Shown here in pieces: positions 1-17,594 of a stretch of DNA of 25,907 nucleotides. Origin of the DNA: Planctomycetota bacterium (GTDB lineage Bacteria > Planctomycetota > Phycisphaerae > WQYP01); assembly GCA_021798635.1 (NCBI GenBank), contig JAJZGH010000030.1, forward strand, positions 1-25,907, read 5' to 3'. Position 1 is the stretch's first letter; every line of letters begins with the position of its first letter. A program made the translations under genes and the position numbers. The notes beneath the pieces are model-generated. The model searched no databases. It worked only from the letters and a program-made list of their open reading frames with translations, and had not been told where the DNA came from.

Positions 1-2
1 TT

Positions 3-149
3 TTCGGTTGGGGGACGCGGGCCCGAGCGGATTCGTGGCGAAACAGTGAGGAAAGCCGCAGCGCGGGGTTAATACGGAACACTTGTGAAGCTTATACTTG
101 CTGCGCGGAAACCACGAAAACTAACATCGGCCGCATAAAAAAAGAGTGA
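3..149 (+). CDS. Possible 3' end of an upstream gene (partial)
   Basis: A frame open from the window edge ends at TGA 147-149 with the residues Ile-Lys-Lys-Glu. It is 48 codons long and I recognise no family. Its last bases (AAAGAGTGACG) match the end of the membrane-protein gene that finishes at 8148. That gene, like this one, is followed by the repeated promoter/leader module, so this may be the tail of an equivalent gene whose body lies outside the window. A frame this short can stay open by chance in GC-rich DNA, so support is weak. Confidence 0.25.
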   Translation, partial: FGWGTRARADSWRNSEESRSAGLIRNTCEAYTCCAETTKTNIGRIKKE

Positions 150-262
150 CGTTTCTCCGCCTGTTAAAGCACATGAAAAGGGGACATCTGTCGATTCCAC
201 GGGCCGGTGCGGAAATGGCGGCCAGCGAGTAACTGCACGGGTGCAGCCTTGTGTGACATGAC

Positions 263-349
263 TTGGCACACTGCGGTTGGAGAGGTAGAATTTAGCTGTT
301 AAAACAACTTCGGCCTTTTTTCGGGCGGGTTATGATTGCACTGAACGAA
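263..349 (+). promoter_or_regulatory. Promoter/leader module, copy 1
   Basis: TTGGCA (263-268), a 17-bp spacer and TAGAAT (286-291) form a good sigma70-type promoter, five of six consensus bases in each box. A leader follows to an ATG at 332. The promoter, the leader and the first codons recur at 8227-8313, ahead of the third RHS frame, with the same 17-bp spacing. The first residues are alike in both copies (M-I/V-A-L-N-x-Q-F), partly through synonymous codons, which supports 332 as a true start codon. Here the downstream RHS body is missing. Confidence 0.6.
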
Positions 350-377
350 CAATTTCACCACAACGACACGCCGTCGC

Positions 378-406
378 GGTTACAGGTTACGGGTTACAGG
401 TTACGG
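378..406 (+). repeat. GGTTACR heptamer array (4 units)
   Basis: Four GGTTAC units begin at 378, 385, 392 and 399, exactly 7 bp apart, with A or G alternating as the seventh base. Related arrays lie at 10756-10790, 10916-10929 and, degenerate, 19491-19504. This one sits where the RHS leader stops resembling its paralogue. Confidence 0.85.
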
Positions 407-426
407 CAACACGGACCCGGCGAGTG

Positions 427-472
427 CCTCCCTCTATCCCCCATGCGGGAGCCCTTCGGGGGGAGGGGCGAA
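427..472. other. GC-rich stem-loop-prone segment
   Basis: A C-rich run (CTCTATCCCCC) and a G-rich run (GGGGGGAGGGG) flank GAGCCC-TTCG-GGGGG, which can fold into a hairpin with a TTCG tetraloop. It is not followed by a T-tract, so it is not a typical terminator. It fills the gap between the leader remnant and the small membrane-protein gene. Confidence 0.35.
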
Positions 473-566
473 GTAGTGGCCCGGCCCCGGCGTGTACCGG
501 CGGAAACCTGCGACGGTCAGGCTGCTACGCCCTTGGCGGAACGCCCTTAGATAGGGAGGTTTTACA

Positions 567-905
567 ATGCAGATTCAGCCGTGGCCTGTTGGCATGCTCG
601 CGTTCGTGATCCTTCAGACACCGACGAACGAACTGCTATTTTACCGTGTGCCAGCAATCAAGCGAAGGGACACAGCGGAGCTCCGGGAAATTCGCCTTGC
701 CGAGGCGACATTGGTAATCTTGGTTATGTTCGTGACCGAACTTCAATACAGCCACCAATACTCAGGCCTTGCCCAGTCCTTAAATATCACCGTGGCCGCG
801 ATTTGGATCCTTTTGGCGCGGAATCCCGATTTGCTCATCAGAACGCGGCAAATGATACGGGCCTGGCACCGCCACCATGGGGGCGGCGAAAAGCCGGAAG
901 CGTGA
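567..905 (+). CDS. Small membrane protein, possible cassette partner
   Basis: 112 aa with no family I recognise. The start is well supported: AGGGAGG lies at 553-559, seven bases before ATG 567. Hydrophobic segments near residues 45-58 and 71-85 suggest two membrane spans, with charged Arg/Lys/His-rich ends. It lies in the cassette island just before an RHS remnant (930). The same order, an RHS gene then a small membrane-protein gene, recurs three times downstream. By that analogy it could be the partner or immunity gene of an RHS module lost to the left. That role is inferred from position only. Confidence 0.55.
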   Translation: MQIQPWPVGMLAFVILQTPTNELLFYRVPAIKRRDTAELREIRLAEATLVILVMFVTELQYSHQYSGLAQSLNITVAAIWILLARNPDLLIRTRQMIRAWHRHHGGGEKPEA

Positions 906-929
906 GCCATTACTGCGGTTGCCCAATTT

Positions 930-1029
930 CAGGATGGATCAAGCCGGGAATTTGTTTATGATTTGGCCAATGATGTGGTAACATACACCGATGAAAATGG
1001 TTCGGTGTTCTCCAACACTTGGGATCTTG
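930..1029 (+). pseudogene. RHS core remnant cut off by an inserted element
   Basis: The frame from 930 encodes QDGSSREFVYDL and continues to FSNTWD, parallel to residues around HDGSTESFTYNT to FTNTWDPMTR of the RHS protein at 4920-7772 (DNA about 5570-5670). Similarity ends at GGGATC (1021-1026), where a 278-bp element begins. It resumes at about 1311 in the same reading frame, inside the 1119-3647 coding sequence. The remnant is therefore the 5' side of that RHS frame. Its translation stops at TAG 1047-1049, inside the element's left inverted repeat. Confidence 0.8.
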
Positions 1030-1307
1030 GAGCCTGCTTGGGAGGCTAGCGAGAGCCGCGTTCGGCATCCAATCGGTCAGATGCAAGGCAGGGCGACGAG
1101 TAATATTGAGGTGTAAATATGGCGAGAAGCGATAACACCGCAGATGGCCGATTGGAGGCCGAACCCGAAGGGACGCGGTCCTGTCGGCCGCATGCGGCGT
1201 CGCTCCGGCTCCACGACCCGTCTACATCAGGGTCGCGATCGCCGTCACTTCTTGCCTGCAGCCAACATGCCCAGCGTCGCGGCCTCGATAGCCTCCCAAA
1301 CAGGCTC
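1030..1307. mobile_element. 278-bp MITE-like element with terminal inverted repeats
   Basis: The left end (1030-1060) begins GAGCCTGCTTGGGAGGCTAG. The reverse complement of the right end (1278-1307) begins GAGCCTGTTTGGGAGGCTAT. The two arms agree at 28 of 31 aligned positions with one 1-base gap. The element sits exactly where the RHS remnant at 930 and the RHS frame downstream lose their match to the uninterrupted paralogue near 5645-5690. It is too small for a transposase, hence a non-autonomous element. No clear target-site duplication is visible, and about 5 bp of RHS sequence seem to be missing at the junction. It carries a ribosome-binding site and the ATG used by the downstream frame. 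Confidence 0.75.
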
Positions 1308-3647
1308 GGAGACCGAAAGACAAATACAACCATCGCACCGGCATCAGGCATCGGCGGCACGACCGCTCAGAGCTTCCAGTATAACGGCTTAAGCCAGACC
1401 ACGTTTGCCAGAGATACCGCCCAGGGCAACAATGCCGATGTAACAATAGTGTATGATTCCATCGGAAGAACTGTGGAAGAAGTACAAACATACAGTGGCA
1501 ATACACGCTATGTCACCAACGATGCGTTCACGTCATTGCCGGTAAGCCAATTTACATATCCCAACAGCAGGCAGATTAACAATAGCTTCGACAACCTCTA
1601 TCGTCGCCAACTGATTGTTGAGGCGGCAACAAGTGCTGTGATTGCCAGTTGGCAATACTTTGGAGCCAACCGAATTGCCACGGTAACACTGGGTAATGGT
1701 TTGGTGTGTTCCAACATGAACAACGCCCAGGCCAGATCGGCCATCCAATCCGGCCTGCCCACACCCGCATGGGGTAGCATTGCTACCGACCAACTGGGTT
1801 ATGACGGTGCAGGCCGCATGATCGGCAAACGCTTCATCAATGGCACCAATGTCACTGTGGGCTTTACCAGTGCTTATGATAAGAGTTCTGACAAACTCTT
1901 TGAACGCCCCCTGCACGCCGAAGAACGCAGCAGCCTGTATGATTCCTACGATTCCATGAATCGGCTTCTGGATTATCAGCGTGGCATATTAGCCACCGGC
2001 GGTGGCAGCGTTACCACGCCTGTTGCGTTACCTGGTACGGATCAGGGCCGAAGTTATAATCTGGATGCGTTGGGCAACTGGACCAGCAGTGTGTATACCT
2101 CGGAGGGTGCCACTAGCGCGATAACCGATCAGAGAAATCACAACAAGCTCAATGAAATTATCCAGCGGACCGTTGGCAGCGGTCCGGCGGTGACGTTCCA
2201 ATATGATGGCGTATCCGGGGCAAGTAACGGTAATCTGGCCAATGACGGCACGCTGATTTATTTTTATGATGCGTTCAACCGCCCCATTGAGCTCCGGGTC
2301 GCCAGCTACGGCGGGGTCATCGCGGTATACGCCTATGATGCGCTGAACCGCAGAGTTCGCAAGAACATCGGCAGCGGCGGCCTGCCCGGGAATGTTCCAA
2401 ACGGCACGACGGATTACATCTACATGGGCAATCAGGTGGCGGAGGAAAGCAACCCGTTCGGGGGAACAGGTTCCACTGATACGCCGATAAGGCAATATGT
2501 CTGGGGCACCTATCCCGGCGCTGCGGCGCTCACTCGGCCGTTGGCCTCGACGGGATTTCGGCAACAAAATACGGGCTTGGGAAGCCTCAATATTGACGAG
2601 TGCATCCAGTTGACGACACTGGAGCCGCTTGGACCGCAATCCCTGCCCGCAGGTGCCTATTATCCATTACAGGATTTGCTGTATCGCGCGGTGGCGCTCA
2701 CCAATTCCAGCGGCGGCATCGTGGAGACAAACGACACCGACGCCTATGGAAATACGATTATTTTCACTGGCCCCGGTGCGGATGGCATCTGGTTCACGGA
2801 TGACGATGTGCAAAGCAGTTACGGAGCCAATGACATTATTTATTGCGGCTATCCCGATAACAAACGTGTTTCAACGGATATCGGGACGGGTCTAAACGAT
2901 CCAGAAACGGAACTGTATTACGTCCGCAATCGCAGCTACAACTCGATTCCTGGCAAGGTGTTGAGGCAGGAGCCGAAATCCCGACAGGCCACAGGAGTGG
3001 CGACTCGGGTGCTGCAGCGCGATCCGATCGGCTACGCTGGCGACGTGAATTTGTATGAGTATGTCGGGGGAAGAGCAGTGGTCTCGGCGGATGGGACCGG
3101 ATTAGTTGAGTCATACCTGTGGCACGGGGGAATTCCGCTCGACGTGCCCGAGATCGTTGGCCGTGGTGCGCCGGTGAACATGGGTAGAGGGCCGGATGGC
3201 AAATGTCGATTCTACCGAAATTACTATTATAAGGAATTTCTCGGAACAATTTACAACGGTGGAAGCAGAACATTCTCCGGCCTTGGGGAGGAGCTGGTGA
3301 ATGCCGCCGTCAGGGGTGTGGCCAACCGCGCCCCGGTCACGCGGCTGGTGAGCTTATGGACCAGCGACCTGACGGCAAGCAGTGCGACCTTTATTTGGGA
3401 CGCTTACGGGACCTTTGAGAAGACGATGGTCTTCACGTATACCTGCTGCACTGACTACAAGAACATAGAATACGAATCAACGACGCTCAAGAACGGGGTG
3501 CTCTCGCTGGTGGCCGCAAATTTGAGCGCTGCGGACGTGAACAATGTGGCATATCCGCAGTCCGGTGTCAACGCGAGGAAGCGAGCCGCTGAAACAATCC
3601 TCGAAGCAATGAAGGGATTCATCGATACGCTCTCTGAGGAAAAATGA
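1119..3647 (+). CDS. RHS/YD-repeat protein 1, 5' end rebuilt by an inserted element
   Basis: 842 aa. Residues 1-64 are encoded by the inserted 278-bp element. ATG 1119 has GAGG at 1108-1111, seven bases upstream. True RHS sequence begins near residue 68 (TIAPASGIGGTTAQ) and runs through YD-type repeats (YDALNRRVRK, YDAFNRPIEL) to the conserved end of the core, QRDPIGYAGDVNLYEYVGG, with Asp635 in the DPIG motif. Residues from about 655 to 842 form a tip unlike the other two RHS proteins, with no toxin family I recognise. Compared with its paralogues it has three in-frame insertions: a 78-bp block shared with RHS 3, and 39-bp and 51-bp additions unique to it. There is no signal peptide. Its stop overlaps the start of the next gene. 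RHS proteins usually encapsulate a variable C-terminal toxin; toxicity here is unproven. Confidence 0.75.
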   Translation: MARSDNTADGRLEAEPEGTRSCRPHAASLRLHDPSTSGSRSPSLLACSQHAQRRGLDSLPNRLGDRKTNTTIAPASGIGGTTAQSFQYNGLSQTTFARDTAQGNNADVTIVYDSIGRTVEEVQTYSGNTRYVTNDAFTSLPVSQFTYPNSRQINNSFDNLYRRQLIVEAATSAVIASWQYFGANRIATVTLGNGLVCSNMNNAQARSAIQSGLPTPAWGSIATDQLGYDGAGRMIGKRFINGTNVTVGFTSAYDKSSDKLFERPLHAEERSSLYDSYDSMNRLLDYQRGILATGGGSVTTPVALPGTDQGRSYNLDALGNWTSSVYTSEGATSAITDQRNHNKLNEIIQRTVGSGPAVTFQYDGVSGASNGNLANDGTLIYFYDAFNRPIELRVASYGGVIAVYAYDALNRRVRKNIGSGGLPGNVPNGTTDYIYMGNQVAEESNPFGGTGSTDTPIRQYVWGTYPGAAALTRPLASTGFRQQNTGLGSLNIDECIQLTTLEPLGPQSLPAGAYYPLQDLLYRAVALTNSSGGIVETNDTDAYGNTIIFTGPGADGIWFTDDDVQSSYGANDIIYCGYPDNKRVSTDIGTGLNDPETELYYVRNRSYNSIPGKVLRQEPKSRQATGVATRVLQRDPIGYAGDVNLYEYVGGRAVVSADGTGLVESYLWHGGIPLDVPEIVGRGAPVNMGRGPDGKCRFYRNYYYKEFLGTIYNGGSRTFSGLGEELVNAAVRGVANRAPVTRLVSLWTSDLTASSATFIWDAYGTFEKTMVFTYTCCTDYKNIEYESTTLKNGVLSLVAANLSAADVNNVAYPQSGVNARKRAAETILEAMKGFIDTLSEEK
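2511..2602 (+). repeat. 92-bp identical block, copy 1 (in-frame insertion in RHS 1)
   Basis: These 92 bases are identical to 8840-8931 in RHS 3, while the sequence on both sides is clearly diverged. RHS 2 lacks 78 bp of it and goes straight from Thr-Tyr to Leu-Asp-Glu-Cys-Ile. Short stem-loops are visible: GGCC-GTT-GGCC and GGCTT-GGG-AAGCC. Confidence 0.85.
2853..2897 (+). repeat. Small palindromic in-frame insertion in RHS 1
   Basis: Fifteen codons, PDNKRVSTDIGTGLN, replace the two residues Arg-Phe found at this spot in RHS 2 and RHS 3, a net gain of 39 bp. The inserted DNA has a perfect 7-bp inverted repeat, CCCGATA (2853-2859) and TATCGGG (2879-2885), enclosing AAAC-GT-GTTT. Confidence 0.6.
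2955..3005 (+). repeat. 51-bp hairpin-forming in-frame insertion in RHS 1
   Basis: Seventeen codons, KVLRQEPKSRQATGVAT, are inserted just before the conserved QRDPIG motif and are absent from RHS 2 and RHS 3. The DNA contains GCCAC-AGGA-GTGGC (2988-3001) as a perfect stem-loop, with CCGA (2973) and TCGG (3005) able to pair outside it. Its reverse complement shares CGGGATTTCGGC with the 92-bp block at 2511. Confidence 0.65.
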
Positions 3648-4846
3648 TGGAGCGGAAATCGACAGGCTTGCGTTCTCACCGGCCGCATTTTTCAGTGTGG
3701 GTTGTTTGGGCGGCGATGCTGATATCGGTGGCGATCGCGTCGCTTCTGCTGATATGGCATTTGGCCACACGGCAGCCAGGCCTATGGAGCAGCTTCAATG
3801 CGGTCAACCACCTTGCCGATAAGGAGCCGCGATTCCGTCTCCTGCCCGGAAAAATCACGGAAATCACGGCCGCCCGACTTTCCCGAATAGTCCAAAATAA
3901 CTCCGCCGGCTTCAGGCTGAGGATCCTCAATATTTCCGTTGCTTGGCCCTCGCAGCCCGACGGCATAAGTGCGTCTGCCTTCTCCGAGGGAAGTGGCCGT
4001 CCCGCCGGTGCGTGGCAACTGGAATGGGGCAACGGGGCCGCAGTAGGAGGAAAGGTGGTTTTTCCAATAGCGGCCTCGCCACGGCTTGAGGGCAGGTACA
4101 GAATTTTTACTCCCTTCGACATGAGCATTAATTTCTGGTTCCTTGGCCCGGGCGCTGATATAGGTGCCCATGTGCCGAGGGAAGGCACGACTTGGCTGGC
4201 CCTGGGAATCCGCCATAATTCGCCGGGCTTTCGACCTCGCCTGACCGAGGTCGACGCCAGTGGCAGCTATGCGAATCCGTGGAGCGCAGATACATGTGTT
4301 GGCGTGACATCTCATTGGCATCCCGTCGGGGCGGCGCTGATGCTTTGGCGCTACCAACTGAACCGCCAGGGAACTGAAAAGCGTTTTACAGCCACGCTCT
4401 CGCGTGCGGCGTGGGGGCACCGGCGCACGGCACGGGCCGTGATACAGGTGGAGCGTGAAGCCAAACTTCTCTCCCCGGAGGCCTTTATCAATCTGCAATT
4501 AACCGGGGTTGCTCCGCGGCGGTTGAAACTTAGCGCGGCCCGGCAACGCTTGCTACAACTCTTTGCGCTTTCCGCATTCTACGGAAATTATGCCTTTCCA
4601 CCGAGATGCGTACGCGTCCTACGCGTGTCGATCGGAGGCGGTACCTTGTACGTCCTGCACCTGCAATCTGCCTCATTCGTGCGCGGAGCGCAGGAGGGCT
4701 GGATGGACTACTTTTTTTTCGGCAATGGTGGGGTGTTGGCCGCTTGCGGTGGTTTTCATCCCGTGGCCGCCCGTGCTACCTCATCGCAATTGGCATCCTT
4801 AGCGATTAGCATTTCTGGAATCTTGCACGCACCGAGGATCAGGTAA
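3644..4846 (+). CDS. Membrane-anchored hypothetical protein coupled to RHS 1
   Basis: 400 aa with no family I recognise. The ATG at 3644 overlaps the TGA of RHS 1 (ATGA), and GAGG in the end of that gene provides a ribosome-binding site, so translation is probably coupled. A single strong membrane span lies at about residues 16-40, after a short basic N-terminus. The remaining 360 residues would be outside the membrane and hold no motif I can name. Coupling to a gene with a variable RHS tip suggests a partner or immunity role, though it is larger than typical immunity proteins. An antisense frame (3782-4498) is open across part of it, so some doubt about the frame remains. Confidence 0.55.
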   Translation: MMERKSTGLRSHRPHFSVWVVWAAMLISVAIASLLLIWHLATRQPGLWSSFNAVNHLADKEPRFRLLPGKITEITAARLSRIVQNNSAGFRLRILNISVAWPSQPDGISASAFSEGSGRPAGAWQLEWGNGAAVGGKVVFPIAASPRLEGRYRIFTPFDMSINFWFLGPGADIGAHVPREGTTWLALGIRHNSPGFRPRLTEVDASGSYANPWSADTCVGVTSHWHPVGAALMLWRYQLNRQGTEKRFTATLSRAAWGHRRTARAVIQVEREAKLLSPEAFINLQLTGVAPRRLKLSAARQRLLQLFALSAFYGNYAFPPRCVRVLRVSIGGGTLYVLHLQSASFVRGAQEGWMDYFFFGNGGVLAACGGFHPVAARATSSQLASLAISISGILHAPRIR

Positions 4847-4919
4847 ATGCCCTTAATTCTGGAGCAGCAAGCCATGGGAAAATCCTGCGGCGCCGGGCCT
4901 GTCGGCAGAGCGCGTCGCT

Positions 4920-7772
4920 TTGCTCGCCGTGCCCAAAATAACGCCCTCCAGAGATTCGACAACGCTGCTGCCAGCACCACCGCTTATGACGGGGGCCAAT
5001 CGACCTATTTTGACCACCGATACTCTGGGCAACACCACCGCTACAGCCTTTGATAACAATGGCAATCCGGTAAGCATCACGCGCACCGAACTATCCACCA
5101 TCACCCAGCCCGTGCATACCGCCGAGGTATTTACCACCCTGATGGCATGGGATTGCATGAACCGCCAAGTGCTTTTAGCCCAGAATGGATCGGATGGTTC
5201 AATATCTCCAGTCAAGGGTGTAAATCTCGCCAGAATTACCCTTACCGGTTATGACAGCCGGGGCAATGTAACATTAAATATTGACCCCAAGGGCAATACC
5301 ACCGTCGCACTCTGGGATGGAGCCAGCAGAACGCTGGAAACCCACCAGCATTTACGCCAGAAAGGTTTGGGTAATAATCCCCCGGTCAACAATGGCAATG
5401 GCCAAAGCACCACGTTTAATACCTCCGGTCAGGGCCAGATCGCCGGGAGCATTCAGACCAGCTTGGAATATGATGCCAATTTCAATCAGATTGCCATGGT
5501 CGATGACCGGGGCGGCGTGACAAGATGGGCCTTTGATTCGCATGATCGTAAAACATCCATGACGTATCACGATGGTTCAACCGAAAGTTTTACTTACAAC
5601 ACCGCAAGCAATGTGGTACAATTCACCGATTGCAATGGATCGAAGTTTACTAACACTTGGGATCCTATGACTCGGAAGATAGGCACAACCATCACTCCCG
5701 CAGCAGGCATCGGCGGCACCACGGCCCAGAGCTTCCAATACAACGGCTTAAGCCAGACCACCTTTGCCCGTGATACCGCTGGCACCAACAATGCCGATGT
5801 CACATTGGTATATGATTCCATCCAGAGGACCATCGAAGAAGCGCAGGCCTTCGGCGGCAACACACGCTATGTCACCAACGATGCCTTTACCTCCCTGGCC
5901 GTAAGCCAGTTTACCTTCCCCAATGCACGCCAGATCAATAACAGCCTGGATAAGCTGTACCGAAGGCAGCAGATTATCGAAGCGGCAACAAGTGCTGTGA
6001 TTGCGACTTGGCAATTCTTCGGACCACAGAGAGTCGCGGAAGTGGCTCTGGGCAACGGCATCATTCAAACCACGCTCAATAACGCCAGAACGCACAGTGC
6101 GGTACAATACAACAGCGTTCCCAACCCCGCCTGGGGCACACCCTCCAGTGACCGATTGGGCTATGACGGCGGCGGAAGAATGATCGCCAATCGCTATCTA
6201 TCCGGCGGCATCAATTCCAGCACCTTTGCGTACAACAACGCCACGCCGGTAGTCGGCAACACCACCGCCTTTGATCCGGCGGATAATAAATATTATGAAA
6301 GGGCTTTGCATGCCGAAAGCAGAAGCTTTCTATATCAACCAGTGGATAACACCGGCAATATCGCCTCGCCGGCACCGGGGTACGACAGTGTTGATCGGTT
6401 GCTGCAATATCAGCGCGGAACCCTAAGTGGCGCGGGCGGCTACCAGAACAACGGCGGTGGCGGCGTGGCTACGGGCATCGCACTGCCCAACGCCTACGCG
6501 CAGCAGACTTGGAATCTCGATGGCCTTGGCAACTGGCGGGAGCGGCCAATGACCCCGGTGAGCGGCAGCGCGATCGCGGACCAGCGCAACCATAATCGGC
6601 TCAACGAAATCACGCAGCGAAATTCCGTAACCTTCCTATACGATGGAACCAATGGTGCCAGCAACGGCAACCTTGCACGGACCGGTGGATGGATTCTCGC
6701 CTACGACGCGCGCAACCGCCTGATACAGGTCAACATCGCCGCCAGCGGCGTCCTTGTCGCGGCCTATGTCTATGATGCATTTAACCGCCGGATACGAAAA
6801 ACCATTTCCAACGGAGGGACGCCGGGCAACATTCCCAATGGCACAACGGATTATGTATGGCAGGGCTGGCAGGTGGCGGAAGAGAGAAATCCTCTCGGCG
6901 GCAGCGGCGGTACCGACACGCCCATAAGGCAATATATTTGGGGCACATACCTTGATGAATGTATCCAACTCACCACGCTGACGACACTCGGCCCACAAAA
7001 CGTGCCCGCCGGAACGTATTACCTGCTGCAGGATCTGCTTTATCGCGCCGTGGCATTGACCGACGGCAGCGGCAACGTCGTCGAGGCCTATGACACCGAT
7101 TCGTATGGGGTGACACTGATCTTCACCGGCCCCGGGCCGGATGGTATATGGTTTACCGACGACGACACCCAATCGAATTATGGCGTCAATGAAATCATCT
7201 ATTGTGGTTATCGGTTCGATCCGGAGGCCGTGGGGTATTACGTGCGTAACCGGTACTACGTACCATTCTTTGGCCGCTGGCTGCAACGCGACCCGATCGG
7301 CGCGACGCCGAGCCCTTGGGCGGGCGGGGTGATCTCGGGGCCGATGCACCGGCTGTTGCCCGCTGACGCCCGAAACGGGCGAGGCCATTCGCCGAACACC
7401 TATGAGTACGCCGCAGGCCGGCCGAACAACGAGCTTGATCCCCTTGGCCTGTTTCCGTGCAACGTCGGCACAGCGTTGAATTGTGCGGCGGGGTGTCGCG
7501 TCAAGTACCCGATTCCGTACGTCCAGATTGGTAGCAATTGCCAGCAGTGGCTCTGGTGGGATTGCCCGCCAATCTGGAGTGTATCGTGCAACTGCATTTG
7601 TGAATGTGGGCTCACCATTGGAAGACCAGCATTTCCGGATCCAAGAAATACCTCCCTAATGGTTTGGGAATGTGAGTACCGCTGCCCCGGGGCCGCGCCC
7701 GGGAAGCGCTGGCCAGGGCAATATATAGGGGGGTGCCCTGCGGTACAAAGCATATATTGCCAGAACATCTAG
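4920..7772 (+). CDS. RHS/YD-repeat protein 2 with cysteine-rich tip
   Basis: 950 aa, the longest RHS frame here. The frame opens at 4857 with no ATG before RHS similarity begins. TTG 4920 is the likely or arbitrary start, and neither a signal peptide nor the usual N-terminal part is present, so this is probably a 5'-truncated module. YD-type repeats run through the first 650 residues, for example YDSRGNVTLNIDPKGN and YDAFNRRIRK. A DGIWFTDDD segment lies near residue 740 and the core ends at QRDPIG (Asp791). An insertion separates DPIG from NTYEYAAG, compared with RHS 3. The tip (about 844-950) begins after DPLG and holds more than a dozen cysteines, for example CNCICECG, suggesting disulphides or metal binding. 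A membrane-protein gene follows 22 bp downstream. Confidence 0.75.
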   Translation: MLAVPKITPSRDSTTLLPAPPLMTGANRPILTTDTLGNTTATAFDNNGNPVSITRTELSTITQPVHTAEVFTTLMAWDCMNRQVLLAQNGSDGSISPVKGVNLARITLTGYDSRGNVTLNIDPKGNTTVALWDGASRTLETHQHLRQKGLGNNPPVNNGNGQSTTFNTSGQGQIAGSIQTSLEYDANFNQIAMVDDRGGVTRWAFDSHDRKTSMTYHDGSTESFTYNTASNVVQFTDCNGSKFTNTWDPMTRKIGTTITPAAGIGGTTAQSFQYNGLSQTTFARDTAGTNNADVTLVYDSIQRTIEEAQAFGGNTRYVTNDAFTSLAVSQFTFPNARQINNSLDKLYRRQQIIEAATSAVIATWQFFGPQRVAEVALGNGIIQTTLNNARTHSAVQYNSVPNPAWGTPSSDRLGYDGGGRMIANRYLSGGINSSTFAYNNATPVVGNTTAFDPADNKYYERALHAESRSFLYQPVDNTGNIASPAPGYDSVDRLLQYQRGTLSGAGGYQNNGGGGVATGIALPNAYAQQTWNLDGLGNWRERPMTPVSGSAIADQRNHNRLNEITQRNSVTFLYDGTNGASNGNLARTGGWILAYDARNRLIQVNIAASGVLVAAYVYDAFNRRIRKTISNGGTPGNIPNGTTDYVWQGWQVAEERNPLGGSGGTDTPIRQYIWGTYLDECIQLTTLTTLGPQNVPAGTYYLLQDLLYRAVALTDGSGNVVEAYDTDSYGVTLIFTGPGPDGIWFTDDDTQSNYGVNEIIYCGYRFDPEAVGYYVRNRYYVPFFGRWLQRDPIGATPSPWAGGVISGPMHRLLPADARNGRGHSPNTYEYAAGRPNNELDPLGLFPCNVGTALNCAAGCRVKYPIPYVQIGSNCQQWLWWDCPPIWSVSCNCICECGLTIGRPAFPDPRNTSLMVWECEYRCPGAAPGKRWPGQYIGGCPAVQSIYCQNI
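7303..7395 (+). repeat. Hairpin-bearing in-frame insertion in RHS 2
   Basis: Between DPIG and NTYEYAAG, RHS 2 has about 31 residues where RHS 3 has five (FAGGV), a net gain of about 78 bp. The extra DNA contains CGCCCG-AAA-CGGGCG (7367-7381), a perfect stem-loop. RHS 1 and RHS 3 have no counterpart here. Confidence 0.5.
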
Positions 7773-7794
7773 CCCGTTTGGAACGGAGGTGCCA

Positions 7795-8148
7795 ATGTTT
7801 CGCGTTGCTGTGGTTGCGGCATGGTTGCTCTGGTCCGCTGGCCTGCTTTCTTGCCTGCTGGCACTGGTAATAGCCTCAGTGGTGCCGGCGCTGGGCTACG
7901 ACAGCCACCTTGCGTTCGGGCTCCCTTGGGGCGGTGAAATGCGATCATCTGTTCAGGCGGCCGTGATGATTATTGGCGGGATCGGGCTGCTGCTGCTGGG
8001 AATAGGCAGCACGCTCCTTGTACATCGCCTGCCGCAGTCACCGCTGGGAAGCGGACTCAGCCACGCTGTCCATGGGAAGGCGGGCAAAAACGCCCCAGCC
8101 GCGTCGCGCCTCGCCGGGGCCAACAAAAGCGGGGGAGCGAAAGAGTGA
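7795..8148 (+). CDS. Small two-span membrane protein following RHS 2
   Basis: 117 aa, family not recognised. ATG 7795 is chosen because GGAGG (7785-7789) lies five bases upstream. Two clear membrane spans are visible: about residues 3-30, rich in Ala, Leu, Val and Trp, and about 47-66, including IIGGIGLLLLGIGSTLL. A short basic Ala/Lys/Gly-rich tail ends in Lys-Glu. It starts 22 bp after RHS 2 and is followed by the promoter module of the next cassette, so it belongs to the RHS 2 unit. By position it is a candidate immunity protein for the cysteine-rich tip; the sequence alone does not prove this. Confidence 0.65.
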   Translation: MFRVAVVAAWLLWSAGLLSCLLALVIASVVPALGYDSHLAFGLPWGGEMRSSVQAAVMIIGGIGLLLLGIGSTLLVHRLPQSPLGSGLSHAVHGKAGKNAPAASRLAGANKSGGAKE

Positions 8149-8226
8149 CGGCGACGGCCCCGACTGGCGGGCGCGGGAACAGGCCGCGGCGAATCGGCGT
8201 TCGAAATGTCGCGGAACATAATTTGC

Positions 8227-8313
8227 TTGGCACCCCGCAACTGGAGAGGTAGAATTTGACTACCAAAGCAACGCGAATCTTTTCAGGCAGGTTATGGTCG
8301 CATTGAACAGACA
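8227..8313 (+). promoter_or_regulatory. Promoter/leader module, copy 2 (drives RHS 3)
   Basis: TTGGCA (8227-8232), 17 bp, then TAGAAT (8250-8255). Conservation continues through GGAGAGG in the spacer, the leader, and ATG 8294 with the codons after it. The distance from the -35 box to the ATG is 67 bp here and 69 bp in copy 1 (263-349). The bases before the ATG (CAGGCAGGTT) give only a weak, very close ribosome-binding site. Confidence 0.65.
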
Positions 8314-9700
8314 ATTTCAACACAAAAGCATAACGACACCAAGCAGTGGCGGAAGTATGGCTACGCCAACCACGTTGCCAAACGTCGACGCGCAGGAATC
8401 ATGGAATCTTGACGGCATGGGAAATTGGCGATCTCTGACCTACACGGCTATGGGCGATACCCCCTCCGTCCAACAGCGCAGCCATAATCGCCTCAATCAG
8501 ATCACAAATCTCGGCGGACGGGCATTCACATACGACGGATTGCCGGGAGCTTCCAACGGCAACTTGGCCGATGACAGCTTCCGTGCTTATCAATTTGACG
8601 CGCTGAATCGACAGATTCAGGTCAACTCGGCGGGAAGTGGAACCGTTCTGGGCAGCTACGTCTTTGACGCGTTTAACCGACGAATCCGCAAGACGATCAG
8701 TAACGGCGGCTTTGGCGGCGGAATTGCCAATGGCACCACAGATTATATACACCTTGGCAATCAGGTCATGGAGGAACGCAACCCCTTTGGCGGAACAGGC
8801 AGCACCGATACGCCCATAAGGCAATACATCTGGGGCACGTATCCCGGCGCTGCGGCGCTCACTCGGCCGTTGGCCTCGACGGGATTTCGGCAACAAAATA
8901 CGGGCTTGGGAAGCCTCAATATTGACGAGTGTATCCAATTGACCACGCTTATTCCCCTGGGCCCGCAAAGCCTGTCACCTGGAACCTACTTCCTGTTACA
9001 GGATTTGCTGTATCGCGCGGTGGCACTGACCAGTTCCAGCGGCAACAATGTGGAAGCGTACGACACCGACGCGTATGGTAAGACGTTGATCTTCACGGCA
9101 CCTGGCCCGGATGGCATCTGGTTTACGGATGACGATGTGCAATCTTCCTACGGCGCAAATGATATTATTTATTGCGGGTACAGGTTTGATCCCGAAACAG
9201 AACTCTACTATGTCCGCGCGAGAACGTACAACCCCACCCTCGGTCGTTGGATTCAACGCGATCCGATCGGCTTTGCCGGTGGCGTGAATTTGTATGAATA
9301 TGTTGGTGGGCGAGCGGTGGTGGGGCTTGATGCGATGGGGAGAGGCGGTAGGGTGCCACCCGGCTTCAACCAAGGAGGAAATTCACATCCACCGAATCCG
9401 CGGATTCGCGATGGTGGCGCATGCTGCTTGAGATGGGGCGAATTCTGGCAGGAGTTCGGGTACAGATCCTACAGCCAATGCGTACAACAAGAACACGACA
9501 TGCTTTCGCCGTTTCCATCCCAGCCCAGTGACTGGATCGGGCTGGGCCTCGGGCTGGCGGGGAAAACCGGGGCGGTCACAGTGGTTTCGATTGGCCTTTC
9601 CGTGTACGAGGCATTTCTATGGGATACGGTGGAAGACCAGTGCTCGGAACAGCTTTGCCTCGAGGCCGGGACCTACAATTGCCAAGGGCAGTGCGTCTGA
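8294..9700 (+). CDS. RHS/YD-repeat protein 3, short orphan cassette
   Basis: 468 aa. It starts MVALNRQF inside the repeated leader module. Within about 20 residues it enters the middle of the RHS core: its TPTTLPNVDAQESWNLDG parallels TPVALPGTDQGRSYNLDA of RHS 1. The leader is thus fused directly to an internal RHS position, with no signal peptide and no N-terminal half. YD-type units include YDGLPGASNGNLADD and FDAFNRRIRK. The shared 92-bp block encodes part of residues 183-213. The core ends QRDPIGFAGGVNLYEYVGG (Asp323). The tip (about 349-468) is cysteine-rich (GACCLRWG, CSEQLC, CQGQC) and holds a hydrophobic stretch, WIGLGLGLAGKTGAVTVVSI. The structure fits an orphan RHS C-terminal module carrying its own promoter. 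Confidence 0.75.
   Translation: MVALNRQFQHKSITTPSSGGSMATPTTLPNVDAQESWNLDGMGNWRSLTYTAMGDTPSVQQRSHNRLNQITNLGGRAFTYDGLPGASNGNLADDSFRAYQFDALNRQIQVNSAGSGTVLGSYVFDAFNRRIRKTISNGGFGGGIANGTTDYIHLGNQVMEERNPFGGTGSTDTPIRQYIWGTYPGAAALTRPLASTGFRQQNTGLGSLNIDECIQLTTLIPLGPQSLSPGTYFLLQDLLYRAVALTSSSGNNVEAYDTDAYGKTLIFTAPGPDGIWFTDDDVQSSYGANDIIYCGYRFDPETELYYVRARTYNPTLGRWIQRDPIGFAGGVNLYEYVGGRAVVGLDAMGRGGRVPPGFNQGGNSHPPNPRIRDGGACCLRWGEFWQEFGYRSYSQCVQQEHDMLSPFPSQPSDWIGLGLGLAGKTGAVTVVSIGLSVYEAFLWDTVEDQCSEQLCLEAGTYNCQGQCV
8840..8931 (+). repeat. 92-bp identical block, copy 2 (in RHS 3)
   Basis: Base-for-base identical to 2511-2602 in RHS 1 while the flanks differ at many positions. The corresponding place in RHS 2 lacks 78 bp. 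It is read in frame in both cassettes. Confidence 0.85.
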
Positions 9701-10065
9701 TTGCCCGTGTTCCGGCACTTGCTCTCAGGACGCGGAGGGACAAAGGTAGAACCCTGCGCCCCAGAGGCCGGTTTTCGTAGGCGCGGCCCTCGACGCTGGC
9801 CGCCGCACCGGAAGGGCACTTGGCGGTCTCTGCCTGCCGCCATCGCGTTGGCCGGGTGGCGTATGGCACGGTGGCACCAAGGCTGGTCGGCCCCCTGGCA
9901 TATTTCTGGGCGGGCGCGCAGATGCGCGACACCCCCGGGATGTCACCGGCGGTGCCGCGACCGGAGGGTGGCGGCACGACATCGCCGGGAGATCAGCGGC
10001 GCAAACTTCGCCGGTGTCTTCCGATAGTTGGCACGCTCGGCCGGGAATGTTCTTGGAGAATTGAA
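9701..10065 (+). other. 365-bp gap between RHS 3 and its downstream gene
   Basis: I see no convincing gene. The open frames here are arginine-rich with only TTG-type starts and no ribosome-binding site, so they look like GC-rich background. It may hold the remains of a deleted gene, because RHS 1 and RHS 2 have their partner genes directly adjacent. Confidence 0.4.
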
Positions 10066-10461
10066 ATGAATAACATTGCCTCTGGCCTTATCGCTACCGG
10101 GGTGGTGCTCAACCTCGCGATAGTGTCACTGGAGCGACGGTGGGGGAATAATCCGCGATCTGCGAGAATTCTGGCGGAAATCCGGCTCGCCTTCATCGGG
10201 GCCATTATTTTCTGCTGCGGACTGCTCGCCGGAATGGGTGATGCAAACTCGGCGGCTCGGGCGGCCTGGGCACACTCGGCTGGCGGCGGCACTCAGGCGA
10301 TGTCCTATTCAGCTTGGGCCGCGGTGCTCTGCCACGCTTCCGGGTGGCAGTTTCTGCTCAGCGGGCGCGCGTGGCCGGGACTTATGCTCGGAATAATGGG
10401 GATATTGGCAATGACTTGGGGCAGGCCGTGGTTCGTAGGCAAGATGGGGAAAGGAGGTTAG
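10066..10461 (+). CDS. Small multi-span membrane protein downstream of RHS 3
   Basis: 131 aa, family not recognised. ATG 10066 follows GGAG at 10055-10058, seven bases away. The frame stays open upstream to 9820, but that extension lacks a start site with a ribosome-binding site. Membrane spans are likely at about residues 3-22, 38-57, 80-100 and 104-118. It lies 365 bp after RHS 3, further than in the other two cassettes. By analogy it is the third RHS-associated membrane protein and a candidate immunity protein. No pairwise similarity among these membrane proteins is evident, as expected if each matches a different tip. Confidence 0.55.
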   Translation: MNNIASGLIATGVVLNLAIVSLERRWGNNPRSARILAEIRLAFIGAIIFCCGLLAGMGDANSAARAAWAHSAGGGTQAMSYSAWAAVLCHASGWQFLLSGRAWPGLMLGIMGILAMTWGRPWFVGKMGKGG

Positions 10462-10525
10462 GGATCTGCGACCAAGCCGGGCCTCCGACGCTTGCAATGA
10501 TAGCAGCTTCAAGTTGCCCGCAACA

Positions 10526-10656
10526 TAACTGTTTACCGTGCACCGGGGTGCCGTGAAACAAATCAGAACTCAGCCGTCGGCGGTGGGCGAGGCGTGCCGG
10601 CATAGCGGCATTCTTCGCTAATTCGCAACTTGCGCGGCGGACCCGGTAAACAGTTA
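10526..10656. repeat. 12-bp inverted repeat pair
   Basis: TAACTGTTTACC at 10526-10537 is the exact reverse complement of GGTAAACAGTTA at 10645-10656. The 107 bp between them encode nothing evident. This could be a tiny element end pair or a chance match in repeat-rich DNA. Confidence 0.5.
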
Positions 10657-10755: not shown

Positions 10756-10790
10756 GGTTACAGGTTACAAGGTTACAGGTTATAGGTTAC
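10756..10790 (+). repeat. GGTTACR heptamer array (5 units, one degenerate)
   Basis: Units begin at 10756, 10763, 10771, 10778 (GGTTATA) and 10785. They are the same heptamer as at 378-406, so this sequence family occurs near both ends of the RHS island. Confidence 0.8.
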
Positions 10791-10989
10791 GGGGGACAGC
10801 GTTGCTTCAATTAATAGTGAGTAATGAATAATGAGTAGAGACGAGAAGAGGAGTTGGGAATTAGAAGGGTTTGAAGCGCTTCGCTGCCATTTTTCCTGAT
10901 GCAGGATGCTTTCCGGGTCACGGGTTACGGCGGGGATTGGAGTTGGTATACGCGCAAGTGGATGGCGGTGTTGCGGTCGGAAATTGAAC

Positions 10990-11236: not shown

Positions 11237-11692
11237 TCAATATCTGGGGATGGCCACGACATCGAAAGGGGAAAGAGGCTCAATCTCGGTGAAGCGGCGG
11301 AAGTCGGCATCATTGAAGGTCAGCAGTTTAGCGACGCGGTGTTGGATCATCAGGGCAACCAAGCGAAGGTCATGGGCACGCTTGCCGACGACGGCATATT
11401 TGGCGATCAAGCCCTCCCAAATAGGGTAAACCTGAGGCGTTTCTGGAAGCAGTTCAAATAATGTTCTGGCGACGGCGATCTCGGCCCCAGCCTGTTGGGA
11501 CGTCAGGCCGAAGCCGTTGACCTCAGCGGGCCGGGCGCAGACGACGTACATCTCATAAAGGCTCTGGGGTGCAACGGCGAATTGCTCCTGATCGCGCAAG
11601 GTAAGCACCTGCAGTGCGTCGAGGGCTATCTGGCGGTGCGGGTGGTCGATCTGGACCAGACGCAGTGGGATATTGGTGTCAACGAGGATCAT
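11237..11692 (-). CDS. vapC: PIN-domain ribonuclease, VapC-type toxin
   Basis: 151 aa, close to the usual VapC length. The acidic residues of a PIN active site are in order: Asp5 in MILVDTN, Glu47 in SLYEMYVV, Asp108 in KRAHDLRLVAL and Asp128/Asp130 in TFNDADF. PIN toxins are Mg-dependent RNases that cut specific tRNA, rRNA or mRNA and are blocked by a partner antitoxin. The start overlaps the end of the upstream minus-strand gene by 14 bp, the usual antitoxin-toxin arrangement with coupled translation. Free-standing PIN nucleases exist, but the overlap makes a toxin-antitoxin pair the best reading. Confidence 0.85.
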   Translation of the reverse strand: MILVDTNIPLRLVQIDHPHRQIALDALQVLTLRDQEQFAVAPQSLYEMYVVCARPAEVNGFGLTSQQAGAEIAVARTLFELLPETPQVYPIWEGLIAKYAVVGKRAHDLRLVALMIQHRVAKLLTFNDADFRRFTEIEPLSPFDVVAIPRY

Positions 11693-11894
11693 CAGCCATC
11701 CCGGAGTAAAAACCGTCGCGGCTGTCGTCTATTTTGTGCCCCAGAGGTTTGTGGCTGTCTGCCCAGGCACGCAGGGATTTGAGCCAGGGGTTGTCTGAGC
11801 GGGGCTGGTCCAACACGATGACGCGCACAGTGTGGCCGTGCAAGTCATGATTTTTGATCAGGTCGTCCCATTTACCTTGAAGAATATCGGGCAT
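11679..11894 (-). CDS. Putative antitoxin of the VapC-type toxin
   Basis: 71 aa, starting MPDILQGKWDD. I chose the ATG at 11894 because GAGG lies seven bases upstream; an in-frame ATG at 11918 is possible but has no such site. It overlaps the toxin gene by 14 bp, so the two are coupled. The protein is acidic and hydrophilic, with Trp-rich stretches such as NPWLKSLRAWADSH. I see no clear AbrB-, MetJ/Arc- or Phd-type DNA-binding motif. The antitoxin role is inferred from gene order and size. Confidence 0.6.
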   Translation of the reverse strand: MPDILQGKWDDLIKNHDLHGHTVRVIVLDQPRSDNPWLKSLRAWADSHKPLGHKIDDSRDGFYSGMADDPR

Positions 11895-11918
11895 TTTGGT
11901 TACCTCAAAAGCTACCAT

Positions 11919-15545: not shown

Positions 15546-17594
15546 ATGCCGGATGAAAACACACGATACTACACCCGGTATCTATCGCAAATAACCGGAC
15601 CCTATCCGCGCTCTACGATTGGGCGCATGGCGCAGACCCGGCGTTTAACCCGTGGCCATGAAGTTTCCTCTGACAAGCAACATTGGATTCCGCTGGAAGA
15701 GTTTCTGGTTCAGGATGGATCCGGTAACAAGAAAGCGTCAACCCTGACGATTTCGGGACCGAGTTATCGCGCCACTTACCGTATGGAAAAAATTGACGAA
15801 AGGTTCGGGCCGGAGGCGGGCGGTTCCCGGACCCGCTCCGCTGATCACAGCCGATCCCACGTGAGTCCCAAAGTCTGGATCGCAGGGGCGGCCTGCTTTG
15901 TGCTGGCCATCGCAGGCCTGGTGATTTTCCTGTCAGGCGGTGGATCAAATAATCAATCCTCCGAGCCTGCGGCCTCCTATACTGCACCAGCATCAGGCAA
16001 CAACTCGTATACGGCACCGACGCCGCAGGCGACCTATACGCCCGCGCCTTCCCCGGCCCCCAGCCGCAATACTTATGTTTCTGATGCCTCGGTAACGCCC
16101 CATACCACTGCCAATGCGGTTGCCAGCGGCAATGAAACATCCGGCTCCGCAGTTGCTGCGGGATCGGTCCTGCTGATCAACGGTACAACCAGCACGATTC
16201 TCAATCCGAATAATCAGGCAACTCAGGAAGGCGCACTGGCGACACGCACCAGCTTTACCAAGCCATGGGTGACCCTGGGTGCCCAGGATCGTGCATTCGG
16301 CCATGATGGTTATGTTATCGTGGCCACAACGCCGGCCGGCACCGGTTCCGGTGTGTGGGTGAACGCCAATCCGTTTACCCATACCCTGATTCCCGCGGGT
16401 CAAAAAACGTCAACGGATATGTACATCGGCCCCAGTCCGCTCAAATACAGCTTAAAAACTCTTATCCACGTGCCGGCATATCTCAAGGTGTCTGTGCATG
16501 GTTATATCAATGGCATTACCGCGGGCTATAACTATCCTCAGGTTTACGCGCGGGACGGTTCAACGGCCGATGTTCGTGAGGCGGGTATCGCCAGCCGGGG
16601 CGGAGCGATCGCTTTCGGGACGCCCACGACCATGGCAAAACTCCGCATCACCGCAAAGCCGCCAAACAATTTATATGTGGGTGTGATGGCTAATCAATAT
16701 TATGACAGCCTCTCGGCCATCACGCTGGTGAATACCCGGTCCGGCCAATCCGCCACAGCAGTGCCGCAAATTTATTACAACAATACCGTGCCCGGTGCGC
16801 TCTGGTATTTTTTTGATGTCGCCGGTGCCAGGCGGGGTGATGTCATAAAGCTCATTGAAACGCAATACAACACCGGAGCTTCAGATGATCAGCATCCGGG
16901 GCTGCCCGCGTTGACCTTTGATTCTGTTAATCCAATGAATCCCAATGCCCCGCCGCCCTATTCGCCGGCCCCCAAGATCGTTCCGGTCGTGCAGCACCAT
17001 GCCGACACCCACTTCAGCGACAAAGCTGTTTCCCCATATACCGGATCAGTAACGGTGGCCGGCATACAGACGCCGATCTGGCTTAAACTTGTGCGCCGGG
17101 GCAACCGCGTATCCGCGTATTATTCCCGCGGCGGCCGGCAGTGGACGCAGTTAGGCACTTCGCAGCAGATTGCATTTGGCGGTGCAACGATTTGTGCCGG
17201 CATGGCGGTTTGCGCTCATAATGACGGAGCACTGAACACCGCCCGCTTTTCCCACGTTACGGTTACCCGCACGCGTTCCGGCTGGTCGGATGCGAACATC
17301 GGCTATCCTGCGAAACTGGGATCCGCTCGCGAATCCGGCGGAACCTGGACGGTGACCGGCGGAGGATCAGATGTCTGGGATAAACATGATCAATTCAATT
17401 TGTACAGCCGAAAAGTAAATGGCGATACGGTCATCGAAGCCCGAGTAGACAGCCTGACCAATACGAATCCATGGGCCAAAGTCGGCGTGATGTTGCGCGG
17501 ATCAATTAATGATCGCGCACCATTTGCTTATATGTTTGTCACGCCAAACCTCGGGCTAGCCTTTCAATACCGGCCGCACGGTACCGGCAGTTAA
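15546..17594 (+). CDS. Membrane-anchored GYF-like protein with split beta-sandwich modules
   Basis: 682 aa. ATG 15546 follows AGGAG (15530-15534), 11 bases away. Residues 7-55 resemble a GYF_2 domain (YYTRYLSQITGPYPRSTIGR, then a Trp followed by PLEEF). One membrane span lies at about 109-130 (VWIAGAACFVLAIAGLVIFL), followed by a Pro/Thr/Ser-rich linker to about 200. The outer part ends with pieces of a DUF1349/concanavalin-like sandwich in unusual order: the C-terminal half of one unit (about 490-577), then the N-terminal half of the next (about 578-682). The chain stops at FQYRPHGTGS, mid-domain, 22 bp before the convergent helicase gene. It probably senses or binds something outside the membrane; the 3' end looks truncated. 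Confidence 0.7.
   Translation: MPDENTRYYTRYLSQITGPYPRSTIGRMAQTRRLTRGHEVSSDKQHWIPLEEFLVQDGSGNKKASTLTISGPSYRATYRMEKIDERFGPEAGGSRTRSADHSRSHVSPKVWIAGAACFVLAIAGLVIFLSGGGSNNQSSEPAASYTAPASGNNSYTAPTPQATYTPAPSPAPSRNTYVSDASVTPHTTANAVASGNETSGSAVAAGSVLLINGTTSTILNPNNQATQEGALATRTSFTKPWVTLGAQDRAFGHDGYVIVATTPAGTGSGVWVNANPFTHTLIPAGQKTSTDMYIGPSPLKYSLKTLIHVPAYLKVSVHGYINGITAGYNYPQVYARDGSTADVREAGIASRGGAIAFGTPTTMAKLRITAKPPNNLYVGVMANQYYDSLSAITLVNTRSGQSATAVPQIYYNNTVPGALWYFFDVAGARRGDVIKLIETQYNTGASDDQHPGLPALTFDSVNPMNPNAPPPYSPAPKIVPVVQHHADTHFSDKAVSPYTGSVTVAGIQTPIWLKLVRRGNRVSAYYSRGGRQWTQLGTSQQIAFGGATICAGMAVCAHNDGALNTARFSHVTVTRTRSGWSDANIGYPAKLGSARESGGTWTVTGGGSDVWDKHDQFNLYSRKVNGDTVIEARVDSLTNTNPWAKVGVMLRGSINDRAPFAYMFVTPNLGLAFQYRPHGTGS

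Follow-up and report, generated by a model that had tools for sequence, protein, structure and literature searches.

The orphan rhs-CT/rhsI and cdiA-CT/cdiI modules of Enterobacteriaceae are described, in the parts of the literature cited here, as a core tail with a variable tip and no delivery part (PMC3967940, PMC3150448, PMC2935791), with a partner gene behind and with tips that are also found on long RHS genes. Translation initiation signals are usually missing from orphan rhs-CT genes (PMC3967940, PMC3150448). Displaced tips are described as likely silent in PMC2935791, where one Serratia fragment has a start site. A promoter (P2) inside the conserved rhs sequence of main and orphan genes drives expression of both kinds of Rhs tip in Salmonella, where they act as type II toxin-antitoxin pairs; its start sites lie 89 nucleotides (nt) upstream of the DPxG motif sequence (PMC7043789). 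Here we analysed 25,907 nt of a Planctomycetota bacterium (assembly GCA_021798635.1, contig JAJZGH010000030.1, positions 1 to 25,907 of the forward strand; hereafter the window), in which two copies of a start module, consisting of promoter-like hexamers, leader, start codon and first codons, were found, one of them heading an orphan RHS gene. The initial annotation of this DNA had contrasted the module with known orphans as usually silent; this holds in that start signals are usually absent, and does not hold for the orphan Rhs toxin of Salmonella, at least in the passages cited above.

The planctomycete orphans share with those of Enterobacteriaceae the core tail and variable tip without a delivery part and the tips common to long RHS genes, with a candidate partner gene behind. 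They differ in that a start codon followed by Val-Ala codons stands in frame in 51 of 56 short RHS-tail genes (25–130 open codons before the tail), and in that a promoter-like site precedes the module start. Like the Salmonella P2 toxins, they are orphan tips with a shared promoter; unlike there, promoter, leader and first codons lie outside the RHS sequence and are joined to it at many core positions. As far as sequence can tell, a separate start module outside RHS is new relative to the internal-promoter expression of Salmonella, and no such start module in planctomycetes was described in the open-access literature that we searched. By analogy, the function may well be of the Salmonella orphan-Rhs kind, with a different anatomy. 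Polymorphic toxin cassettes likewise combine variable C-terminal modules with partners, HEAT, ankyrin and LRR proteins being among their immunity proteins, and their standalone cassettes are toxin-domain donors; the passages on them mention no shared start module (PMC3482391). We consider it probable that the planctomycete element is an expression module that turns orphan RHS tips into free-standing, probably toxin-immunity, genes, where expression is what we infer from the module.

The initial annotation had claimed that promoter, leader and start codon recur within the window, and the repeat is confirmed. Each copy holds TTGGCA and TAGAAT with a 17-nt spacer, followed in copy 1 by a 40-nt leader and an ATG at 332 and in copy 2 by a 38-nt leader and an ATG at 8294 (Table 1). 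The two 87-nt stretches are identical in 65 of 89 aligned columns, and a blastn search of 262–373 against the window returned copy 2 at 8226–8325 (74.5% over 102 nt, E 1e-13), the next-best match being only 24 nt long (E 0.026). The similarity peters out about 11–15 codons inside the reading frame. At copy 2, as had been proposed, the module is fused to the middle of an RHS core: its open reading frame (ORF) of 468 amino acids (aa) matches TIGR03696 (E 1.7e-18), enters the core mid-way and ends in a variable tip. The RHS body is indeed gone at copy 1, which opens a 72-aa ORF without RHS; the end of a tip gene, out of frame and with its stop at 474–476, is followed by a partner gene. Positions 404–1025 are 91% identical over 622 nt to G007 C31 in a related genome, where they form the end of a tip gene and then a 112-aa gene. 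Because an out-of-frame tip end and an intact partner gene are both present, copy 1 looks like a remnant cassette from which RHS tail and tip were lost and in which the partner gene was retained.

In positions 1–10600 of the window no match came up to the gathering score of any Rfam family, and positions 255–400 gave no match at E ≤ 1e-5 in phage and plasmid collections, and therefore no known mobile carrier. A scan of the window for repeats with arms of at least 25 nt listed one inverted pair, located away from the module. A leader hairpin (GCCT-loop-AGGC) was dismissed by eye, as several aligned copies disrupt the pairing.

An exact-pattern search for the module gave no matches in 41 genomes, because the copies are too variable for it. 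A profile built from 18 copies yielded 115 hits; after merging, these fall into 102 stretches, with the window counted in. Duplicate positions were dropped, as were hits that departed from the 33-nt start consensus by more than 12 mismatches, which left 91 distinct copies, both window copies among them, in related planctomycete bins. Most of the compared genomes are metagenome bins broken by many contig ends, and the copies are related to each other; the counts given below are not independent. The nearest genome, G001, gave 12 matches at E ≤ 10 in the first search, ranging from 8e-26 to chance level (8 at E ≤ 0.03), and contributes 13 of the 91 copies. Ten of 28 genomes matched in the family search, several through heptamers alone. 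Matches to the module start came from G001, G002, G003, G005, G007, G008 and G012, and in the same search G006 gave no match covering it; G001–G008 are of one genus, and G012 belongs to another genus of the same family. When residues 1–70 of one orphan were compared with a large protein set, 18 of 19 candidate proteins matched at E ≤ 1, none of them named, and the start region therefore looks rare in that set.

RHS core sequence lies in frame within the ORF in 42 of the 91 copies. Since loci fetched for their RHS tails would bias this figure, we also counted the 67 copies from loci fetched for the module alone. Here 23 copies are fused (21 among the 59 that have 500 nt or more behind them), and every RHS tail within 1.5 kb of a copy is in frame 0 (18/18), within one ORF in 17 cases. 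Over all loci, 37 of 39 such tails are in frame 0, with one open ORF in 35 of 39, and the two out-of-frame tails come after weak copies (11 mismatches). The other two frames are open across only 2 and 1 of 35 fused intervals. Phase variation by heptamer slippage, 7 nt being a frame shift, is disfavoured by the 37 of 39 tails in frame.

As a proxy for the junction we took the first residue that aligns to a reference core. In 73 of 74 orphans it lies from about 38 to more than 800 residues before the end of the reference (one of the 73 rows, G003 C54, is a spurious start). These alignment starts fall at more than 10 well-separated positions over the 73 orphans, a remnant of about 57–74 residues being the commonest, and because they differ among orphans the joining of module and RHS seems to have happened repeatedly. 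The suggestion that RHS C-terminal pieces become joined to a conserved expression module is supported by these junctions, by the in-frame copies and by the tips that different modules share.

The linkers between start peptide and core include heptamers of the intergenic type, which are translated as protein in fused orphans. Degenerate heptamers (GGTTACR, GGAGTTR, CTGATCA-like) recur between genes in ten genomes and in the window at 378–405 and 10771–10800. Cyanobacterial short tandem heptanucleotide repeats are likewise degenerate heptamers in intergenic DNA; unlike those, the heptamers seen here (GGTTACR, GGAGTTR) are translated as linker, and in window copy 1 they mark the junction.

The start codon itself is kept, as ATG, TTG or GTG, in 88 of 89 copies. 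After removal of repeats, 89 copies entered the ratio of nonsynonymous to synonymous substitution (dN/dS) and 88 upstreams the promoter count; the dN/dS figures are given without a significance value. Over codons 2–12 the ratio is 0.37 in the 41 fused copies, and the second codon position is the least variable. The start-Val-Ala count of the short RHS-tail genes, from which tails at stretch edges are excluded, compares with 4 of 1100 windows in long RHS ORFs and 0 of 112 in other frames of the same DNA. Taking short and mid-length frames together, 74 of 85 have a start followed by VA, VT, IA or MA. In a set of 58 orphans (57 of 59 references plus the window gene) the invariance of V2 and A3 is circular, since the orphans were chosen by a V-A (or V-T) requirement; residues 4–6, which were not selected for, are L in 38, N in 40 and E in 38. 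The peptide reads MVALNE in the majority of copies and is variable afterwards, its conservation fading past about residue 8.

Among named loci, a V-A start was found in 46 of 49 short-frame tails of planctomycete bins and in 0 of 3 from Rhodobacteraceae, Pseudomonas and LacPavin Planctomycetia records; this set overlaps that of the 56 genes, counts some genes twice through the overlap of L174 and L176, and was gathered with search patterns that included NEQFHHNG, a part of the start peptide, so that it is biased to the peptide for the main genus. Genes with MVAFAENK and MVAINEKL starts are without the NEQFHHNG pattern. The bins WY1.bin118 and LL4.bin22 have the V-A start in 17 of 18 and 9 of 10 cases, with their own repeated leader, by eye, before MVAFAENK- and MVAINEKL-type starts. 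As a separate observation, also by eye, many orphan RHS genes of WY1.bin118 (L182–L208) and LL4.bin22 (L173–L181) appear to be preceded by homogenised promoter-leader-start modules particular to those bins.

The peptide could be a sorting or loading tag, with the short RHS proteins delivered as effectors, either by a secretion system or inside an RHS shell that is made elsewhere and loaded in trans. It is met on many tips and across bins, with changing promoters and linkers, a near-complete RHS frame (G007 C53, 1825 codons before the tail) starts without it, and in an insect pathogen one ABC toxin shell is described as packaging three cytotoxic components from distinct loci (PMC11067744, in the part cited). 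Conservation that fades after so few residues speaks against a tag, as does the failure to recognise a known signal in the peptide, and we regard this alternative as unlikely. Somewhat less remote, though still doubtful, is a wider proposal in which a swappable start module captures displaced RHS tips at repeats, MVAxNE is itself a functional tag and the products make up an expressed arsenal apart from full-length RHS.

The share of sequences with a sigma70 score of at least 8.5 is 73% for the 88 unique module upstreams, 8% for 86 control stretches taken 500–600 nt upstream and 10% for dinucleotide shuffles. In 73 of the 88, the distance from the end of the −10 element to the start is 32–42 nt, and the mean score is 9.11 for fused and 8.56 for unfused copies. 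Clustering of the sequences ahead of RHS ORF starts gave 32 clusters, some of which come from spurious starts in long ORFs (the starts assigned inside long RHS ORFs, in 18 of 22, are mostly spurious). What the copies have in common is thus a promoter geometry and a start peptide; the "same promoter" of the initial annotation stands in this sense, and not as one conserved promoter sequence.

Tips are found on different modules. One tip family stands behind upstream clusters 10, 4 and 6 (G001, G003, G007), and G006 has it at the end of a long RHS frame. The tip of the window ORF 1119–3647 and its 400-aa partner also sit behind a TTG-started module in G001 (orphan G001 C76). There is also turnover at one site: behind the same conserved gene lies a lone module in G003 and a full orphan in G008, with neither module nor RHS tail there in the DNA compared of G001, G004, G005, G006 and G007, and with no match in G002. 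The occurrence of the same tips on orphans and on long RHS frames, as in window 1119–3647 and G001 C76, recalls the displacement model (PMC2935791, as far as cited) and would suit a silent archive, in which the modules are recombination anchors that move tips onto full-length RHS genes and expression is irrelevant. An archive would need no start codon, no promoter and no open frame through a linker made of repeats, and is disfavoured because all of these are kept in the fused copies; we give it little chance.

In keeping with an orphan Rhs-CT build, a core tail with a DPxG-type motif ahead of a variable tip, TIGR03696 scores above its cut-off in 8 of 10 orphans, one further orphan reaching 32.4 against 32.5 bits and one having no match. 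One of the 58 orphans matches a Pfam toxin family (Ntox24), and PADLOC returned nothing for the 58. As partners we scanned 56 of 65 references, mechanical picks of ORFs behind the stop; four are Sel1, two LRR, one Barstar and one HEAT proteins, and the majority match nothing. Sel1 and Barstar proteins also serve as immunity proteins. A membrane-like stretch is present in 41 of the 56 partners and a strongly hydrophobic stretch in 1 of 58 orphan N-termini. Orphans and partners would fit cytosolic toxin-immunity pairs, a fit that falls short of proof.

Under the reading that we favour, the repeat would mark the 5' end in a family of short RHS genes that stand by themselves. The module would provide a sigma70-like promoter, with its −10 ending about 32–42 nt ahead of the start codon, and an N-terminal peptide, which a linker, often from intergenic heptamer repeats, would connect to the last part of the RHS core; behind the core tail would follow the variable C-terminal tip and then the partner gene. 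Displaced tips, elsewhere usually without start signals, would be transcribed through the module and become expressed genes, and tips would be exchanged within the RHS tail. Because the peptide is without a strongly hydrophobic stretch, the product most likely stays intracellular, where tip and partner may act as a toxin-immunity pair of the type II toxin-antitoxin kind, the immunity being kept expressed too. Deletion of tail and tip, as suggested for window copy 1, would leave module and immunity gene.

Several results weigh against this reading. RHS is not in frame behind 49 of the 91 copies, and 38 of the 59 unselected copies with enough DNA are unfused. A partner-like gene lies within about 450 nt of four unfused copies, in one case with only 34% identity, and the tip or partner relatives found within 2.5 kb of 13 of 49 unfused copies are in several cases part of the next cassette. 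In the 48 unfused copies dN/dS is 0.49 and the codon positions vary near-equally (0.16, 0.15, 0.18), and in G012 (14 copies) it is 0.85, so that the coding signal is weak in unfused copies. Two longer RHS frames, G007 C9 (493 codons) and G003 C53 (573), start with the peptide, which is therefore not confined to short genes. No Pfam toxin match at E ≤ 0.01 was obtained for 57 of 58 orphans, and the ORF present behind 67 of 68 orphans is a count without a chance control.

The unfused copies and their slight codon-position signal would agree with a dispersed non-coding repeat, like a miniature inverted-repeat transposable element or a heptamer array, behind which RHS stands by chance and in which the start codon is incidental; the linker heptamers also recur in genomes where no module was found, such as G004. 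Such an element would be indifferent to frame and free of coding constraint, whereas the fused copies keep the frame and, by dN/dS, show constraint, and the start codon is present in nearly all copies. Moreover, the same start-V-A occurs downstream of unrelated promoters, and 18 of the 67 unselected copies have an RHS tail within 1.5 kb, against about 0.6% expected (a rough figure from G003, 35 matches in 4.7 Mb). We therefore think a dispersed repeat very unlikely and retain the expression module.

Two lone modules were seen to be followed by possible partners. At G007 C31 (oriented position 16045) a partner-type gene 96% identical to the G008 partner follows, and at G003 C86 (4917) a 36% relative of a Sel1 partner, in the module's own frame; both are possible immunity-only cassettes. 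Separately, an in-frame insert of about 20 residues (...LRQEPKSR...), resembling a mobile protein-coding mini-element, breaks RHS tails and cores at unrelated sites in L075, L077, L089, G003 C8, G004 C93 and G006 C154.

The features of the window are collected in Table 1. The first ~60 residues of the ORF at 1119–3647 (1119–1310; MARSDNTADGRLEAEPEGTRS...) are not RHS-like and also occur in G003 C152. On the minus strand, 11237–11918 holds a gene for a VapC-like PIN toxin, under the curated cut-off, with a small ORF adjoining.

Table 1. Positions of the module copies and of the genes around them in the window
Feature	Position	Strand	Basis or remark
−35-like hexamer TTGGCA, copy 1	263–268	+	sequence
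−10-like hexamer TAGAAT, copy 1, spacer 17	286–291	+	sequence; promoter test at family level
Leader, copy 1, 40 nt	292–331	+	copy alignment
ORF of module copy 1, 72 aa (MIALNEQFHHND...), without in-frame RHS	332–550	+	
Four GGTTACR heptamers, junction with foreign sequence at their end	378–405	+	
Tip-gene remnant (putative toxin), ~23 final codons with stop, not in the module's frame	404–476	+	
Immunity-like gene, 112 aa, open	567–905	+	89% over 111 aa to gene behind G007 tip gene
Long RHS ORF, 842 aa	1119–3647	+	tip 99.5% over 184 aa to module-headed G001 orphan
Partner of the 1119–3647 tip, 400 aa	3644–4846	+	99.75% identical to gene behind G001 orphan
Second long RHS ORF, 950 aa	4920–7772	+	
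Small ORF behind second RHS ORF, possible partner	7789–8148	+	no Pfam match
−35-like hexamer TTGGCA, copy 2	8227–8232	+	sequence
−10-like hexamer TAGAAT, copy 2, spacer 17	8250–8255	+	sequence
Leader, copy 2, 38 nt	8256–8293	+	copy alignment
RHS orphan opened by copy 2, 468 aa: MVALNRQFQH, then RHS core from mid-way, then tip	8294–9700	+	
RHS tail within copy 2 orphan gene, residues 287–349	9152–9340	+	TIGR03696 match
Candidate partner ORF behind copy 2 orphan, uncertain (alternative 9701–10027)	9820–10461	+	no Pfam match

A silent archive or collected immunity genes are often named as the reason for which bacteria retain orphan RHS tips, since such pieces are usually without start signals. 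In the present lineage, RHS pieces carry promoter-like sites, a leader, a start codon and a shared peptide, in many separate joinings, which suggests that normally silent RHS pieces are made as protein and makes their expression directly testable. The family thus offers a clear case of gene fragments turning into genes again, including what appears to be an immunity-only remnant and linkers derived from repeats.

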